Positions 3,456 to 25,629 of a DNA stretch of 27,291 bases are shown here, piece by piece. The stretch is from NCBI GenBank assembly GCA_946803715.1, contig CAMPET010000001.1:571360-598650 (forward strand), written 5' to 3'. The notes beneath the pieces are model-generated. The model did no database searches, was not told the DNA's origin, and worked only from the letters and a program-made list of their open reading frames with translations. The stretch comes from Beroe ovata (lineage: Eukaryota; Ctenophora; Nuda; Beroida; Beroidae). How positions within the stretch are numbered: position 1 is the first letter of the stretch; each line of letters opens with the position of its first letter. Position numbers and translations under genes: made by a program.

Positions 3456-4175
3456 GGTCGCCAGGGCAGCTCATTACCACTCTGTCTTGACAAAAGTCGA
3501 TTTTGAATGACCCCTTGGTTTGAAATGTTTCCTAGTGCTTGACAACACAACAGGTGCCTGCACAGTACTCCATTACAACGAGTAGATGCTGCATAAGCTA
3601 GTTTAATGTGAGAGACGAGGCGGAAGAACCAACCACTAAGTGCAATGTCACTGGACTATGGTGTCAGGATGTAGGATCATACTACAGAATCAGGACATAG
3701 GATCATACTCTCACTATGATACCTCAGTGAGGTAAATGTGAGGTTACCTAAATGTGAGGTAACCTCACATTTGCCACTTCATTACAAAGGACACTTCATT
3801 ACAAAGGACAATAGAACATGCTTCATAGTTTGTTAAAAGTCACATATGCCTCAAGATCTGCAATCAATAATTATGCAATATTGTTAGANTTCTCTGCTGT
3901 CGAAGAAAAAACCTTGCATCCCGGTCTGCTTTACAAAGATCTTCATTAACCCAATGGATACCCATATGATTGTTGAAATTTATTCTGTATTTGTCCATGA
4001 ATGTCAACAAAATATTTATCTTTAAAATTGGAAGTTTCCAATTGCGCACTACGCGCATTGCCTGATGATGCTTTTTTATAAGCCGCGAGTGCCAGCAATA
4101 ATAATTTGTGGCGCGCATTGAAATTCTCGACGCGACAGGCTAGGGGCCGGTCTTGTCAGATTTTATCTGACCTCA
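3456..4175. other. Intergenic stretch, no gene recognised
   Basis: I see no convincing exon or RNA gene here. It holds a short perfect palindrome (3750-3772), a tandem pair of a 17-18-bp unit containing CACTTCATTACAAAGGA (about 3776-3810) and an assembly N at 3889. Confidence 0.5.
3750..3772. repeat. 23-bp perfect palindrome
   Basis: Arms AAATGTGAGGT and ACCTCACATTT surround a single central A. A partial extra copy of the left arm (AAATGTGAGGTTACC) begins at 3734. No function can be assigned. Confidence 0.7.
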
Positions 4176-4225
4176 GTTTCTCGCGCGCGGCGCGCGCGCC
4201 TTCATCGAAGGCGCGCGCAAGAAAC
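4176..4225. repeat. GC-rich hairpin (GTTTCT arms, GCGCGC stem)
   Basis: A perfect 12-bp stem (4192-4203 with 4207-4218) closes a 3-base loop. Outer GTTTCTC.../...AAGAAAC arms extend the fold. The right flank 4221-4245 recurs inverted at 20270-20294 with 24 of 25 bases identical, so this is a piece of a dispersed repeat. Confidence 0.65.
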
Positions 4226-4318
4226 AGTAGACAGATAACATCCGGCAAGGGCCGGTCTAGCTGGCTATCATTGACAGCCAATGCGCGCAATTGCGCGCAA
4301 GTTATGTATATTCTCCGC

Positions 4319-4401
4319 TTGTAGGATTTTACCCTACCGTCGGTGCGCGCGATTTGCCAGGGATAAAATCCCGCCAGCAAGGGTAGGGTGAAATCCTACA
4401 A
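4319..4401 (-). mobile_element. MITE copy 1 (83 bp, 9-bp target duplication)
   Basis: The terminal inverted repeats start TTGTAGGATTTTACCCTACC on the left and TTGTAGGATTTCACCCTACC on the complement of the right end (one mismatch in 20). The element is flanked by a perfect 9-bp direct repeat, ATTCTCCGC (4310-4318 and 4402-4410). Its interior is the reverse complement of the copies at 19620 and 19813, so it lies in the opposite orientation. It has no coding capacity. A 9-bp duplication is usual for Mutator-like transposons and possible for Merlin; the superfamily is an inference. Confidence 0.9.
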
Positions 4402-4473
4402 ATTCTCCGCCATCCGCGCTGCGTCATTTTCAATCCTGTTCATCTGCATCGCGTCGATGCAATTCAATTCAAT

Positions 4474-6047: not shown

Positions 6048-9000
6048 TACAGCTACCTGGCAGGAGTTGAGGATGGTATCAGTAAACTGGTTGAGGTCAG
6101 CAACTAGTTTCGCATCCTCATCAGAGACCCCAGGTCTGACACGGGACTCCAGTATTGCCTTGTCCAGCTTATCGAGAGGCTTACTGACAGTGACAGCAGA
6201 GCTCTTCGTGAATTCCATCGAAACCTCTTTCCTGTGTAAGAACTTAGTGTTAAACACATGATCATAATATTGAATGGTCGACACTTGGGTCCTTTTCTCA
6301 ATGCGTGGAAATAGCAAAATATAATGAGCTATCATACAGGAAACACCTTATTAACCATGCCCTAATTGGCGTGTATGATCTTTGCCTCAGGGTGAGACAT
6401 ACTGAACAACTACCTTAAATCGACCCTCAAGGGTATTTCAGGGGACAGGGCCCCTCACAACAACTATACCACCCTTAGGGTAATGGCGCCTTGGGAAAGT
6501 GTACAATTTGTATAATCTCTGGTACACTACAGACAAACTGTGAAATTGAGGATATTGATGTCATGACACTTGCAGTTGTTGTCAACAACAAAAGATCGTT
6601 GATAAAATGCACGCGCGCCGTTTTATCAGTTGACAGAATCACGCCGCGCAAAGGAATGTAAGGCGCGCACAATATATTTCGAAAATTTTCCAAACTTTTT
6701 AAGCAAAATTATCGGCTGCGCCCTCCGTCGAATTTTTTTGTAGACCGTTTTTGTAGCTTTTGAGAGAACTTTTTTTTGAGAGAACATTGTCAGAATGTCA
6801 GAATTACCGTCCCAAACTTACTTCAAATTTCAGAAATGAAATGTCTCTTTAAGTTGTATCTCTAGATAAAGCGTTTTCGACCAAAGTCACGGATGTATCA
6901 AACAGAACGCCTCAAACGTCGTATGGTACATTTCGGTTAGAAATATGTATTAATTCTACTATCTCTATTTCTAAATAAATATTGCGAGCAGAAACGTTGA
7001 CTGAAATTTCCTATCTACATAAGATAAGCGAGATTCTTTGCTGGCGTTGAGCTAAAAATAAATCCAGTGATAGAGTGTTGAGATAAGGTGATGACAAATT
7101 CAAACACAAATTCAGTGTACACTGAACATAGATAACCTTAAACATTACACACAGACATTCATACATCGCATACATACACACAAACACAAACACACACTCA
7201 CACTCACACACACGACACAAAGACTCACACACACAACACTCACACACACATACACACACACACACACATTCTTACACAACATGAATACGATAACACTTCT
7301 TTGTCTTCAGTCAATATACTGTACATTTGAAGAAATATTTCGAATTACAGCAGCAAGATTATCGCTTCGATTGCAGAAAAGTGACAGTCAATATTGCTCA
7401 CTATCGGACATATGCCATCGGGCATATGCCATCGAGAATGTACAATCTATTTGAGTGCAAATTCTTGGGTACAAATTTCTGAGCACAGAAAATTTGAGAA
7501 GTCTCAGTGACTTCATTGATATATAATTCTCATTTGAAATTACTTACAGCTTGGAGCAGTTTTCCTCGTGTTCTTTACAGGATACACCGTCAGCGAAAAC
7601 TCCAAAACACGAAATAGCTTGACAAAATATATACTTGTGTTTGACTAGGTGCATTTTGAGATGCTGACCTTGGCCGAGCGTTTGTTTACAGTGTGGACAC
7701 TGTAAACAATCCTGCAGGGAGGGAAGGTCACTATGACAATTTGCAAACATGAGAACTTGTCTGTCACTTGTCAAGTTGTCAGTATGTCTGTCTGTGTGCG
7801 GCTATCATGACTGTCAGTAACCCACCACTTCATGTTTCCTGATTATATGTTCCACCAGGTGGAATCGACTGTTGAATACTTTGTCCGGGCACAGGGAACA
7901 CGGTGACTTAGCCCGCGACAACAACTTCAACCCGCCACTATCTGAACATGGTAGGTGCCACGTGATTAGCCAATATAGTGCGAGAATCAGCAGCTACAGA
8001 CAAACAGCCAATTACAGGCAAACAGCCAAGTACAGACAAACACGGTCAGAGTATCAACCAATCCTAGTTAAGTATAATTCCCGAGGGCTGAACACTAACT
8101 TGTTTTGTTGTTTGTGTTAGCTATGATGTAATCATTCAGCATTTTCAATGGAGTATTCCGCGGACCATCACTTGGTGTCTGAAAATGAATGATATCATCA
8201 CCAACTGTATAACTGATATCATTATCATGTAGGTGATAACTACTCTATGTGGTAACTACGTGATCTAAACGAACTGAAGATGCGATCGAATTCAAATACT
8301 ATAATCATATAATAGTGTGAACTATCCCTATTTCACCACAACATTCCTGGCCTGACATTGTAGTTGTAACAATATATTATCTTGTTAGTTCTGTATAGAA
8401 CGAGTAACGACCCCTAAGACCCAACTCCAAATTCGCACACAACGACTCCCCCATCCCCCATCCCCTCCCCCCAAATTCACCCCTAATTCAACAACAACCA
8501 CCCCATATTCACCCCTAATTCAACAACAACCACCCTATACTTTACCCCTCTTCCTACAATAGAGAGAGGACGGTGTAAAGATCACGGTTAACATGGAGTG
8601 TGCTCAAGTGGAACAGTTCAAATCCCAGCTCACGTACACGCTCGACTATTGGNTAGCCCGCGACAACAACTTCAACCCGCCACTATCTGAACATGGTAGG
8701 TGCCACGTGATTAGCCAATATAGTGCGAGAATCAGCAGCTACAGACAAACAGCCAATTACAGGCAAACAGCCAAGTACAGACAAACACGGTCAGAGTATC
8801 AACCAATCCTAGTTAAGTATAATTCCCGAGGGCTGAACACTAACTTGTTTTGTTGTTTGTGTTAGCTATGATGTAATCATTCAGCATTTTCAATGGAGTA
8901 TTCCGCGGACCATCACTTGGTGTCTGAAAATGAATGATATCATCACCAACTGTATAACTGATATCATTATCATGTAGGTGATAACTACTCTATGTGGTAA

Positions 9001-16352: not shown

Positions 16353-18107
16353 TCATATACCATACAGTTCACCCGTGTTTTCTCTTAGTTGAGTGAGAAC
16401 ATCATCAAGATCAAGTCCCTTGATTTGCGACAATTTTTGAGCAATGATTAAGCCCATTCCTGGTGTTGAACCTTTTCTGCTCACATCTTTATCCAGATAC
16501 TGATTATAAACTGGCTGCATGTATGGAGCGTCAGTCTCAATCAGCAATCTGTGAAAGGGAAGATCTCGTACCACATTCACTAATTTCGTTGCTTTACTGA
16601 ATGTTATGAGACCTGAAAACACAAGTTTATGCATGGCATATTCAAAACATGCATTTCATTAGTGATTGAGGATCGAATCTTTGTGAGTGAATATCTGAGC
16701 AAATTACAAAATTAGGTACCAGTGAGACCGATGAAGAGATTTGGAAAGCTACTGGTAAGCTTGCTAGCAAACTCTGCAGATCCTGCAAAGCAGTGGTAAT
16801 GGATTTTGTGATGTCTGGGGACGTATTGCTTCAACAGGAGAATCATATCTCCATCAGCACATCGTCCATGGAGGACAAGGGGTTTTTGCGATGATACTGC
16901 CGCCTGCAATTGACCAATGAATGCTCGCTTCTGGGTACATTTCATCTCGTCTGTTATCTTTGCATCACTATAATCCAACCCAATCTCTCCCCAAGCAACA
17001 GCTTTTTCATGTGAGTTTGCTTTTTTCAGCTGTTCCAAAATGTCTTCATTGTACAGCTCTGCATTATGTGGGTGGAGCCCGAATGTACCCCAAACACCTC
17101 TTTCAGACAAAACATCTAGATGATACTCAGCATCTCTAATAGAAGGTGGGTCGCAAAAACAGGTAATACAGCCGGAAAAGTTGGAGGGAAAATCTCGCTT
17201 GCTGATATAGGATCCGAATGAAGTGAAATGGGATTCTCTGACAAACATGTAATCAAGGTGACAATGAGTGTCTATAAACGGTATCTTGGACATTGGATAC
17301 AGATCGGCACCTCTGGTGATTTTGAAAGGGAAATCAAAATTTCTGTCTCCCCTTGAGTTGTGGATGTTATCTGCTTCATTGCCAGACTTCAGTGACGATG
17401 TTTGTGGTTTATTCAGCTCACTTTCATTTTGAGAGGCATCTAAGTTTACACCACTTTCCAGCTTCGGTTGAAATCTAACAAAACCTTGCTTAACCTGAAA
17501 ATCATGTTATCAGAAAACCTTCTCATTAGGCATGAGTGGCAAGCATAACTTTCAGCCTTCTATACTATCAATTCACCTGAATTTCTTTCTTTAATGGGCA
17601 TGTTATGTCGTTGTGGTTCATGAAAGAGTATTTGAAGCGTTTCCTGGATTTGCTTGACTTTTCTCCCAGAGTACTTTCATCATTTTGTAAATGGCATGTA
17701 CTTATAAAAGTCTGGTATGGTATGGGTGATGAATTCTGATATCTTGCAGGTATACTGCTAAAGCTCATTGGTAGCATAGGCCAGTTTGGTTTCAAATGCC
17801 TTTGATTTGATGAAAAGCAGTTGAATAAGTTACTTCTATCAATATCATTACGTGCTTGTAAATTATTTGGCCTGTTGATATTTATTCCTGCCTGACAAGA
17901 GGAATCATATTCAGGAAATCTTTTTTTGCTATTCAGGGATTGTTGGATTAATGATTCATCACTCTCAAATTTGTTGTGGAGTATCAACTCATGCTTCCCA
18001 AAATGAACAACTGTTGGTTTATGCTGGTGAACTGTATCATGACCTTTTTTCATTCTGTTGCCAGTTTTGGATGGCCAATATGCTATATGAACTTGCATAG
18101 TAGACAT
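16353..18107 (-). CDS. TATDN2: TatD-family metal-dependent nuclease, TATDN2-like
   Basis: Exons are 17577-18107, 16720-17494 and 16353-16612, with phases 0 and 1 and clean GT-AG borders, giving about 521 aa. The C-terminal ~270 residues are a TatD amidohydrolase-fold hydrolase (3'-5' exonuclease or RNase activity in characterised members). Metal and catalytic positions are all present: IDTHCHLD (HxH), GLHPHN, GEIGLDYS (Glu), VLHGRCADGD (His), IHYHCFAGS (His) and LLIETDAPY (Asp). The motif order, FCDPPS and REN...LYGI end are closest to TATDN2 rather than TATDN1/3. The first exon and part of the second encode about 270 Ser/Asn/Lys-rich, probably disordered residues, also a TATDN2 trait. Start chosen at the ATG opening the first exon (MSTMQVHIAYWPSKTG); an upstream exon cannot be excluded. 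It lies 246 bp downstream of DPCD on the same strand. Confidence 0.9.
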
Positions 18108-19380: not shown

Positions 19381-19619
19381 AATGCAGAATTGTCTAATTG
19401 CGACCCCTTATTTTAAATTCTGTTATTCGAAATGCTTGTCAGATATGCACAGGGTTGATTGTCGATCGATGATAGACCCTGTCGAGAATTTCGTTTTGTG
19501 CGCGCGGCGCAAACTTATTCTCAGACGCGGCTTGCATCAGCGGTCTAGCATCGCCAGACAAAGGGTTAGGTTGAACTTGAAGAACAGCTCAGGTAACATT
19601 GTAACAATGTAATGCATTT

Positions 19620-19722
19620 TTGTAGGATTTCACCCTACCCTTGCTGGCCCTGGCGGGATTTTATCCCTGGCAAGGGGCGGATTGAAAATCGCGCGCACCG
19701 ACGGTAGGGTAAAATCCTACAA
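19620..19722 (+). mobile_element. MITE copy 2 (103 bp, 9-bp target duplication)
   Basis: The left end is TTGTAGGATTTCACCCTACC and the complement of the right end TTGTAGGATTTTACCCTACC. It is flanked by a perfect 9-bp duplication, AATGCATTT (19611-19619 and 19723-19731). This is the longest copy. Its interior carries a small hairpin (GGCGGGATTTTATCCCTGGC region) and a GCGCGCACCGACGG block. It is non-coding. Confidence 0.93.
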
Positions 19723-19812
19723 AATGCATTTGACAACGAAATGTCGTATAAGAGGGCTCCAAACTACGGTACCAGTGTACCACGCAGCGCTTGCAGGGTA
19801 TTTGGGTAACCA

Positions 19813-19885
19813 TTGTAAGATTTCACCCTACCCTTGCTGGCGGATTGAAAATCGCGCGCACCGACGGTAGGGTAAAATCCTACAA
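19813..19885 (+). mobile_element. MITE copy 3 (73 bp, 9-bp target duplication)
   Basis: Same ends as copy 2 with one change (TTGTAAG). It is flanked by a perfect 9-bp duplication, GGGTAACCA (19804-19812 and 19886-19894). Relative to copy 2 it lacks about 30 internal bases. The deletion edges fall at repeated GGC/GGCGG words, so it is a shortened derivative. Confidence 0.93.
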
Positions 19886-20160
19886 GGGTAACCAATAACG
19901 CAGCGCGGGGACGTAGTCAAATTTAAAACATTTATTTAATTTTTGTTCCCAGCGCGCGGCGCGCTTTGATCGATGGAAGTTTGCGTATTTGGATCACATC
20001 GAAAAAGCATGTGCACACGTTGCGCGCCTCTGTTCTACTCAGTGAACTGAAAAGTCGTAGAACTGAGAAAGCGCGCGGAGTATTTGGGTCACGCAGCGCG
20101 GGAACAAAAGTGCAACGAGGTCGGGCAACCAAATTTTAATTGAACTGCTCATTAACATCT
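19886..20160. repeat. GCGCGC-rich repeat remnant
   Basis: This contains several GCGCGC runs and a repeated ACGCAGCGCGGG word (about 19898 and 20093; a related ACGCAGCGC at about 19781). The plus-strand context GTATTTGGGT...ACGCAGCGCGGG occurs both around MITE copy 3 and at about 20080-20107. No gene. Confidence 0.55.
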
Positions 20161-20760: not shown

Positions 20761-21253
20761 GGTGCAGTCTGGAGGAAGTTTGACCCTAAAAAGTGGACAT
20801 CTACTTTCTCATCAAAAAAGCAAACATTGATCAAAAAATGGATGTCTGCTTTTAAAAGCCGACATCATCTCAAAGAAGCAGACATCCCCTTTTTTGAAAT
20901 TCAACCTCTCTTGAATTCTGGATAGTTTGGTCATTTATTTTAAACGTAGCACTTAAATCCTCTTGTCTTACTCCCTTTGCCTCTAATAACACCAAACCTT
21001 CAGAAGGTTGGTGGATGTCTGTGTGAACTGTGAGGGGAAGGTTATCTTCCGCTCACACAGACATCCACCAACAATTCTGTTGGGAATTCAATGGGTCTGA
21101 TATTTGTGACATAAAGTGCCGTGAAAGTTGGATATTCTGTTCAGACTTCGGCTTTTTTGAAATGATGTCTGCTTTTAAAAGCAGATGTCAGCGTTTTGGA
21201 TATATGTCTGGCATATTGTCTGCTTTTTAGGGTCAAACTCCCTCCAGACTGCC
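20761..21253. mobile_element. 493-bp foldback MITE, PIF/Harbinger-like
   Basis: The terminal inverted repeat core begins CAGTCTGGAGG(A/G)AGTTTG and runs 29 bp (20765-20793 and complement of 21223-21251) with one mismatch. Tips start with GG, and a 3-bp TAA flanks each side (20758-20760, 21254-21256). TAA duplication and GG tips are typical of PIF/Harbinger. The element is non-coding. It contains many copies of an ATGTCTGC word in both orientations and a central perfect hairpin (21007-21072). A longer outer inverted repeat also surrounds it. Confidence 0.75.
21007..21072. repeat. Perfect 20-bp stem hairpin in the foldback element
   Basis: GTTGGTGGATGTCTGTGTGA (21007-21026) is exactly complementary to 21053-21072 across a 26-base loop. 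CAGAA/TTCTG extends the stem after a small bulge. Confidence 0.9.
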
Positions 21254-23257: not shown

Positions 23258-23660
23258 AATATCACGAATCAAAGGATAGAAGCATTCTGTCTGTGGTGCA
23301 TTATTATTTGATACTGAGTTCATATACTGTGGTTTTTTGTTTTTAATTTATTTCACTAATTAGAGTCGATTCATTTGTTGTGGGTCTTGTCTGCTGCCTG
23401 GTCAAGTTATGGCCCATTTTTGTCGATTGAGGGCCGGTCACAGCTAGGAATATCAGAATTCGTGACGCGCTGAAACACCTTTCTTTGATAGAATGGTATT
23501 TTTCAGCGCGCACTGCGCAATTAAATTGCGCACGCGCGTGCGTTACATGCAAGATATTTATTCATCATGCCCTATCACTGTGATAGTTGCACGGATTCGG
23601 CAAAAGTGTATGGCCTCTCTGAATTCCGTCGCTCATTAGCCGTGAAGATAATAAAATGAG
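23258..23660. other. 3' flank of NAA50 with GCGC-rich palindrome
   Basis: This contains the NAA50 3' UTR and then a GC-rich patch (23463-23545) with a 19-bp perfect palindrome, TGCGCAATT-A-AATTGCGCA (23514-23532). No gene seen. Confidence 0.5.
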
Positions 23661-23752
23661 TGCTCCAGGAGAGGCTCGAACTCTCAACCTTCGCATTGCT
23701 AAGCCTGTACTGCTTATAAGTACGACGCGCTAACCGATTGTGCCACTGGAGC
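23661..23752 (-). tRNA. tRNA-Ile (UAU) with intron
   Basis: The 7-bp acceptor stem (GCTCCAG/CTGGAGC) carries discriminator A. The A box reads TGGCACAATCGG and the B box GAGTTCGAGCC. The anticodon loop CT-TAT-A-A is interrupted after position 37 by an intron of about 18 nt. The mature RNA would be 74 nt. An intron in tRNA-Ile(UAU) is common in animals. A T-run for polymerase III follows within about 10 bp. Confidence 0.95.
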
Positions 23753-23850
23753 TAGTTCCAGTTCTATTTCAAGAGTTTTGAAATTTCGAAACACTGCACA
23801 CAACACAAGGAAAATTGTCTCTGCAAGCAATTTTCGCTAACTTACCGCTA

Positions 23851-23904
23851 TATGAGCATCAAATCGAATCGTACGACTATAGTCGATTCGATTTGATGCT
23901 CATA
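23851..23904. repeat. Perfect 21-bp inverted repeat
   Basis: 23851-23871 and 23884-23904 are exact reverse complements (core ATGAGCATCAAATCGAATCG) with a 12-base spacer. The spacer itself overlaps the palindrome GACTATAGTC. Flanks show no obvious target duplication. Confidence 0.93.
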
Positions 23905-24181
23905 AACGACTTAAACAAACGCATTCCTCGCATTGTATACATATTGATCAAATTTGGATTAGCTCGAGCGCGAAACAGTTGACAAAACATGGGCCAGCCC
24001 TACTAGGGCTGCCCTAGAGGCTTTAAGCTGTAGACCTACAGCTGATCAATATGAATAACAGTTTAGATAATTCTTTCTTGTGTGGCAATCATTGAATAAG
24101 AAGAGCAGCAGCATCCCGTTCTGAATGGAAATACCCAATACAATTTTTGTTATGATACTCTTGGATTATAACATTGTTGTC

Positions 24182-24254
24182 GGTTCGATGGTGTAGTGGT
24201 TATCACATCTGCTTAACACGCAGAAGGTCCCGGGTTCAAAACCCGGTCGAACCT
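24182..24254 (+). tRNA. tRNA-Val (AAC)
   Basis: The cloverleaf has acceptor GGTTCGA/TCGAACC, A box TGGTGTAGTGG, anticodon arm CTGCTTAACACGCAG with anticodon AAC, and T arm CCGGGTTCAAAACCCGG. The unencoded CCA and a T-run downstream (about 24260) fit a polymerase III gene. The discriminator is T. Confidence 0.95.
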
Positions 24255-24398
24255 CGATATTTTGTTCGGTTTCACTCGTATTATGGCATGGGAGAAAGAA
24301 AGAGATCTCGATGATTATATTTTGGGAAAAATTTTAATCATGCGCAACCAAATATGTGCAAATTCACATTACAGGAATTCTAAGAAATTTGAGAAAAG

Positions 24399-24471
24399 AG
24401 GTTTCGGCGAGGTTCGAACTCGCGACCTTCTGCGTGTGAAGCAGACGTGATAACCACTACACCACGAAACC
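24399..24471 (-). tRNA. tRNA-Val (CAC), copy 1
   Basis: The cloverleaf has acceptor GGTTTCG/CGAAACC, A box TGGTGTAGTGG, anticodon loop TTCACAC (CAC) and T arm GCGAGTTCGAACCTCGC. It is followed on the minus strand by CTTTTC as terminator. Confidence 0.95.
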
Positions 24472-24787
24472 TTCTAAATAATTAATTTCATACGATTTTG
24501 TATGCTTAACCAGAGAATCAAATTATATAACTGGAGTTCAGAGAAACGAATTGTTTTCTTGATTAAACCAAATTTCCAACTGTTAGGTTTAATGGGGTGT
24601 GCGGTAATGCAGAATGATAAAGCTCGGTACTATTCATTATTTTAACTTTACAACACTATTATCATTTTAACTTTACAACACTACTTTATTCAATCATTCA
24701 TTATTTCATTACTAGAAAACCCGTCCAGTGGGAATTTTTTGCTCTTTATCTAACAGAATATAAACTTTACAATTGATTCGTCATTAA

Positions 24788-24860
24788 GGTTTCGTGGTGT
24801 AGTGGTTATCACGTCTGCTTCACACGCAGAAGGTCGCGAGTTCAAACCTCGCCGAAACCT
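24788..24860 (+). tRNA. tRNA-Val (CAC), copy 2
   Basis: This differs from the minus-strand copy at 24399-24471 by one base in the T loop (TTCAAAC instead of TTCGAAC). A TTTTT terminator follows at once. The two genes form a 73-bp inverted pair 316 bp apart. Confidence 0.95.
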
Positions 24861-25629
24861 CTTTTTGTCATTTTCTGCACAAATATATCACGCATGTTAG
24901 TACTAACATTGATTAAATCAGATTCAATCGATTTTATTCAAATTGATAACATTGAAACCAGCGAACAGGCAGCTATATCCAGTCGAACAGTGTACATAGC
25001 TACTGTACACAGCTACTAGCTGCTAGTTAAATAATCAATACACAGTTTTCACACAGTTCCCATTTTGAAAAATAGTCAATAGTGTGAAGGTCAACTCAAT
25101 AATCCTAATACCAACTTAATCCATCTTCCAACGCCATATTATAGATCTTCACTTTTCTACAATCTGTACATTATATTAATTGTGGCTGAATGGCCGATAT
25201 AAACATTGAAATTATGGTTGTATCAGCATAGACTAGTTAATATCGATTTCGATAAAAAACGAATGAACATCATCGGTCGTGATTCAACTTGAACTCTAGC
25301 TCTTTTCTCTCAAATTTTCAATGCTTTAACGCATAGAATTGTTTATCATCGCTAGAAATAGGCCACATGAAATGTCATATGATATGAATGAAGGTCATAA
25401 TCAATGAAAAATGTCAACACGGTTATCATAGGTTAACCTGAATCTCCTGAATGGCAGTTAATATAGCAGTTAATAGTCCACTGATCATATCATATGATCT
25501 GTACAAAATCCCACAATAATTGAGCTCCACGCTCCATCCTGTTCAAAGTTAAAATACACTCCCATTATCCTTGACTAGTCCACAAATCCTTCACTAATCC
25601 ACAAATCTCTCACTAGTCCACAAATCCTT
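24861..25629. other. Intergenic stretch, no gene recognised
   Basis: AT-rich sequence between the tRNA cluster and the minisatellite. I see no exon or RNA gene; CCACAAATC-type units begin to appear near 25581. Confidence 0.5.

Follow-up and report, generated by a model that had tools for sequence, protein, structure and literature searches.

The three short elements analysed here, which lie in a 27,291-nucleotide stretch of genomic DNA (the window), are very likely copies of a single family of non-autonomous cut-and-paste DNA transposons, a MITE family that we call family A. This assignment follows from their anatomy, their copy number and the duplications that flank them, and the identity of family A as a MITE family is firm: its copies have inverted ends and a flanking duplication of fixed length, they leave no room for coding sequence, and they are numerous and dispersed. 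MITEs are a well-known kind of element and family A itself is new; a search of the literature produced no paper that we recognised as describing it.

The positions of the window copies and of two related elements are collected in Table 1. A first-pass annotation had reported the three copies, each with its own perfect 9-bp repeat, and we recover the same borders to the nucleotide, with duplications that differ from one copy to the next. The conserved inverted ends of the family are approximately 20 bp long (TTGTAGGATTTYACCCTACC), and because each window copy carries TTTCACCC at one end and TTTTACCC at the other, the two ends can be told apart. Copy 1 has the T-type end first, in reverse relative to the consensus, and is shorter than the consensus. 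Copy 3 lacks part of the middle and falls 30 bp short of copy 2, with which it shares an identical right-hand 47 nt. The ends had been given as starting TTGTAGG; the borders are indeed fixed by the duplications, but the left end of copy 3 (TTGTAAGATTTCACCC) starts TTGTAAG, one mismatch away.

Table 1. Family A copies, their target-site duplications (TSDs) and related elements in the window.
Feature	Position	Strand	Description
MITE family A copy 1	4319..4401	-	83 bp; perfect 9-bp TSD ATTCTCCGC
Copy 1 TSD ATTCTCCGC	4310..4318 left, 4402..4410 right		exact repeat
MITE family A copy 2	19620..19722	+	103 bp, near full consensus; perfect 9-bp TSD AATGCATTT
Copy 2 TSD AATGCATTT	19611..19619 left, 19723..19731 right		exact repeat
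MITE family A copy 3	19813..19885	+	73 bp; perfect 9-bp TSD GGGTAACCA
Copy 3 TSD GGGTAACCA	19804..19812 left, 19886..19894 right		exact repeat
Related MITE, families C/B (TTGTCAGATTTTATCT / TTGCCGGATGTTATCT)	4153..4248		96 bp; foldback; from the blind TIR+TSD scan
Family D MITE (TTGTCGATCGATGATA...GCATCGCCAGACAA / GCCAGACAA)	19459..19561		103 bp; read from sequence

Chance similarity is excluded as an explanation for the window copies. The 16-bp end matches the window at seven places when up to 3 mismatches are allowed, where 0.54 would be expected and none of 100 shuffled windows reached seven; six of these are element ends, and the remaining one, at 17466, carries 3 mismatches. We also scanned the window blindly for inverted ends that agree at 12 or more of 16 positions, lie 40-600 bp apart and are bounded by identical flanks of 8-10 bp; this returned six rows, namely copies 1-3, the element at 4153-4248 and two overlapping rows at about 20858-21172, and the same scan on ten mononucleotide shuffles gave a mean of 0.1 rows. 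The inverted repeat at 20858-21172, which is flanked by TTTTAAAA, is not of the TTG...CAA type. When folded as single-stranded DNA, the window copies are predicted to be nearly self-complementary throughout (z = -6.57 for copy 1, with a perfect 20-bp stem, -5.37 for copy 2 and -4.03 for copy 3), and for none of the three did any of 200 shuffles match the fold of the real sequence.

The window lies on contig C1 of an assembly of 77.8 Mb in 534 contigs. Its genes are animal-like, and include a DPCD protein (44-45% identity to named relatives and 62-85% to nearer ones), a TatD-family DNase and KH-domain exons. A COX1 family search gave no match. Four tRNA genes are clustered at 23660-24861 (Leu-TAA, Val-AAC and two Val-CAC copies that are mutually inverted), and a perfect 300-bp direct repeat occupies 7909-8208 and 8654-8953, 745 bp apart.

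As the first-pass annotation had proposed, the assembly was searched with the 20-bp end of family A. Allowing up to two mismatches, this gave 954 forward and 946 reverse matches (~1,900 ends), with none for the reversed pattern used as a control on the same assembly. The description of a MITE family therefore holds, but its size, put at three copies from the window, was understated, and it belongs to a set of at least four families with TTG...CAA termini. Were all ends paired, family A would amount to as many as about 950 copies. A related end, TTGTAGGGTTTTTCCCTACCG, is found exactly at 27 places and at 739 with up to two mismatches, these overlapping family A, and appears to belong to an older-looking relative. 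The exact end pattern is absent from collections of viral and prokaryote contigs, from which records near the window's genome may have been omitted. Under a 300-bp merge rule, which fuses some true neighbours, the clustering of copies does not reach significance on C1 (P 0.21) and C2 (P 0.25), is weak on C3 (P 0.008), and is accordingly no claim of ours; the strong-looking clustering obtained with a 130-bp rule was dropped because that rule splits long copies.

The consensus of family A, built from 36 copies of 80-120 bp, is 96 bp long. Identity to it has a median of about 98% and a minimum of 61.8%, figures that are inflated by the choice of the sample through its ends, and this high median suggests that the family spread recently. 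In an earlier pairing of ends, 51 pairs spanned 41-473 bp, with 40 falling between 71 and 124 bp; the eight above 124 bp, as judged by reading the sequence, are either false pairings or copies into which other repeats have inserted. Where a perfect 9-bp duplication is present (32 copies), the element measures 55-126 bp in 30 cases. The smallest, of 55 bp (L068) and 62 bp (L065), may owe their size to deletion after insertion; with perfectly flanked copies as small as 55 bp, the earlier remark that the elements are unusually short was a fair one. We did not accept as an established insertion a 41-bp copy (L076:214-254, or G000:C23:165363-165403) that is barely more than its two ends, its AT-rich flanks agreeing at 6 of 9 positions.

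Target-site duplications were scored in a non-random sample of 101 records (316,938 bases, some overlapping) drawn from C1, from places where an unusual base follows the end and from targeted regions, in which ends with up to two mismatches were paired when 32-260 bp apart and duplicates were removed. Perfect duplications of 9 bp flank 32 of the 52 pairs obtained; of the rest, four pairs show 8 bp, a single pair 6 bp and 15 no duplication in the range 5-12 bp, and when left and right flanks were deliberately mispaired, 0 of 2,652 combinations matched at 8 or 9 bp. The claim of the first-pass annotation that transposition, and not chance, produced these copies is supported. That annotation had also staked its reading on consistent 9-bp flanks and on ends going no further than TTGTAGG: in the copies checked neither expectation failed, since 32 of 52 pairs have the perfect 9 bp and, because these duplications abut TTG, the ends of family A stop there. 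The sample taken most systematically is that of contig C1, where the 17 pairs comprise 11 with a perfect 9 bp (the three window copies included), one with 8 bp and five with 0-1 bp.

Where a family A copy has a duplication of either 8 or 9 bp, it is 9 bp in 32 of 36 cases. Each of the four 8-bp cases (L025, L067, L069 and L088) lies beside short single-base runs, so that loss of one base from a 9-bp duplication is possible. Among the pairs that lack a duplication, some may represent old insertions or ends paired by chance; the pair in L077 matches the consensus at 62% identity. Thirty TSDs reveal at most a weak symmetric preference, for a T in the fourth and an A in the sixth position. At L070:1651-2504 (G000:C118), nearly the same 9-mer stands before each of two left ends (1651 and 2399) and recurs after the single right end at 2504 (GCGCGATCA), a pattern that would fit joint movement or duplication of a composite of MITE copies.

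Three more short families, B, C and D, have TTG...CAA termini in common with family A, and were paired by the same procedure in the same set of sequences. Family B (TTGCCGGATGTTATCT) gave 12 pairs, eight with an 8-bp duplication and four with none; family C (TTGTCAGATGTTACCT / TTGTCAGATTTTATCT) gave 10, six with 8 bp, one with 9 bp and three with none; and family D (TTGTCGATCGATGATA / TTGTCTGGCGATGCTA) gave 23, six with 8 bp, three with 9 bp, one with 7 bp and 13 with none. Pooled, a length of 8 bp accounts for 20 of the 25 pairs that have a duplication, and 20 of the 45 pairs have none. Members of related families, with 8-bp duplications of their own, are nested in family A copies at C1:194583-194814 and in L071, L052 and L079. 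The C/B element of the window, 70 bp upstream of copy 1 and overlooked in the first-pass annotation, has TTG...CAA termini and a perfect 9-bp TSD (GGGCCGGTC), although its families mostly show 8 bp. The family D element is located upstream of copy 2 and its flanks (AGGGTTGA and AGGGTTAG) agree at 6 of 8 positions.

Mobilisation of family A would involve a DDE transposase, encoded elsewhere, that binds the ends and excises the element, which would then be joined to a target whose two strands had been cut with an offset of 9 bp; filling of the gaps by host repair would leave the target duplication. Variants with internal deletions could arise from imperfect gap repair or from slippage within the hairpin. 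The 9-bp duplications require a transposase with a 9-bp stagger, which is probably of the type that leaves TSDs of 8-9 bp, and a MULE-like enzyme is more likely than Merlin, duplication length alone making MULE the best guess.

A Mutator-like or Merlin partner had been suggested from the window, and this suggestion has so far found no support. Domain searches of the assembly covered three transposase families, and while MULE and Merlin domains are present (7 and 3 matches, respectively), none is bounded by family A ends in the flanks read; KDZ (Kyakuja-Dileera-Zisupton) gave no matches, in a search that was also blank in every control genome. That a MULE transposase still in the genome mobilises family A is a tentative proposal. 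The 9-bp duplications fit the MULE type, and the largest frame among the seven matches is an open one of 542 aa (C117) in which FLYWCH and MULE domains are combined. Against this, no family A end was present within about 1.5 kb on either side of any of the seven MULE matches, nor of the three Merlin matches (0 of 10 in all, the flank of the C306 match being shortened on one side by a contig end). Wider stretches around the C117, C183, C97 and C306 matches likewise contain no family A end. In the wider flanks of the four MULE matches for which they were read (C117, C183, C97 and C343), the one exception is C343: one side of this match holds two complete MITE copies, of 99 and 126 bp, the closer of them about 2.5 kb away, and its other wide flank has no family A end. 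In addition, the repeats on either side of the C117 frame are of another type (CGGAATCCCGAACTACG), and the C384 and C184 matches have inverted repeats of other kinds.

The search for a long element that has the same ends and encodes a transposase, also recommended at the outset, used five patterns for ends with deviant next bases, which occur at 44, 39, 8, 11 and 46 places. The surroundings were read at 30 of the 44 places on the first list and in 6, 1, 1 and 14 regions of the others, mostly on the expected body side for the later lists, with the remainder judged by the matched string. With these five patterns and the three transposase families, the places read yielded no autonomous element or transposase with family A ends. 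They gave instead MITE variants, nested MITEs and truncated MITE ends, some of them adjoining host genes, and many of the deviant-end strings look like MITE variants with small insertions. One family A end (L013) runs into an assembly gap, and at the deviant end in L089 a coding-like frame is present.

Several candidates for an autonomous element were rejected. Where ends led into coding sequence, this resembled host genes and not transposons, the genes concerned being named from a reading of the sequence and not from a search. The end in L048 falls in an intron of a putative membrane-protein gene, that in L082 is upstream of a putative DDX59-like host gene, and L092 contains a putative STT3-like host gene, where a further 4 kb (L098) was free of family A ends. 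An apparent element of 468 bp in L071 was discarded on two counts: 67 of its 70 matches cover only about the first 105 bp, a clustered repeat, and L071 is itself an inverted duplication. This large duplication (G000:C3:758500-763499), in which four copies of family A are arranged as mirror images, is either an artefact of assembly or a genuine palindrome. Clusters of a 105-bp repeat that contains a GC hairpin (CTGGGGGCGGCGCCCCCGGACCCC) occur on G000:C168, C175, C257, C43 and other contigs, with a spacing of roughly 140-480 bp on C168 and C175; this repeat is possibly a satellite or a small gene array.

We think it rather unlikely that the mover belongs to an unassigned or undescribed transposase lineage that has TTG...CAA ends, makes 8-9-bp duplications and mobilises families B, C and D as well. 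One lineage of movers is hinted at because four short families in a single genome combine TTG...CAA with duplications of 8 or 9 bp, and the MULE, Merlin and KDZ searches yielded no element with these ends. However, a missing autonomous copy is weak evidence in a draft assembly, the KDZ search was blank in the control genomes too, the searches extended to these three transposase families, and TTG amounts to three bases. The fuller version of this idea, in which families A-D all descend from a single undescribed lineage of eukaryotic DNA transposons, with TTG...CAA termini, a duplication length that differs between families (9 bp in A, mostly 8 bp in B-D) and moving units down to about 55 bp, is a long shot.

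Mobilisation of family A by a Merlin (IS1016-like) transposase is also doubtful. Merlin duplications of 8 or 9 bp, the lengths given in the published account (PMC8101967), would fit both the 9 bp of family A and the mostly 8 bp of families B-D, and one of the three matches to the Merlin IS1595 domain (PF12762) lies in a frame of 326 aa with one undetermined base. The same account describes a conserved 5'-GG terminus, though, and Merlin is disfavoured because this is absent here, all four families starting with TTG; moreover, none of the three matches has a family A end in the flanks read, one of them lying by a contig end. Finally, the strong predicted foldback of the window copies might suggest structural or functional repeats, such as recombination or replication hairpins, with incidental flanking repeats, but this reading is contradicted by the perfect 9-mers that abut TTG and CAA in 32 of 52 copies when no mispaired flanks match, and we dismiss it.

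Family A, as a MITE family, is thus abundant and apparently of recent spread in a compact (78 Mb), animal-like genome. By itself it is a matter of routine repeat annotation, unless its autonomous partner proves unusual. Once the transposase is identified, the sister families would offer a natural comparison of one type of terminus used with staggers of 8 or 9 bp, and the copies of 55-62 bp with perfect duplications bear on the minimum transposable unit, later deletion being possible in these.

Family A resembles other MITEs in its short, gene-less form, inverted ends, fixed-length duplication, high copy number and internal-deletion variants, and differs from them in being almost entirely stem; its sizes sit at the short end of the MITE range. 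A near-complete palindrome is shared with foldback elements, which are defined by long, internally repetitive arms, whereas the ends of family A are only ~20 bp. The 8-bp duplication of hAT and P elements is not that of family A. Duplications of MULEs are 8-10 bp and typically 9 bp, a length that the non-autonomous elements of this group have in common with family A, but MULE ends usually start with G, and those of family A are very short (20 bp) and start with TTG. For maize Mu, a 9-bp duplication is given in PMC2774946. With Merlin and IS1016, family A shares duplications in the 8-9-bp range and a similar length of end, and Merlin-domain genes are present in this genome; its termini, however, are TTG...CAA, fixed by the TSDs, in contrast to the conserved 5'-GG described for Merlin (PMC8101967).
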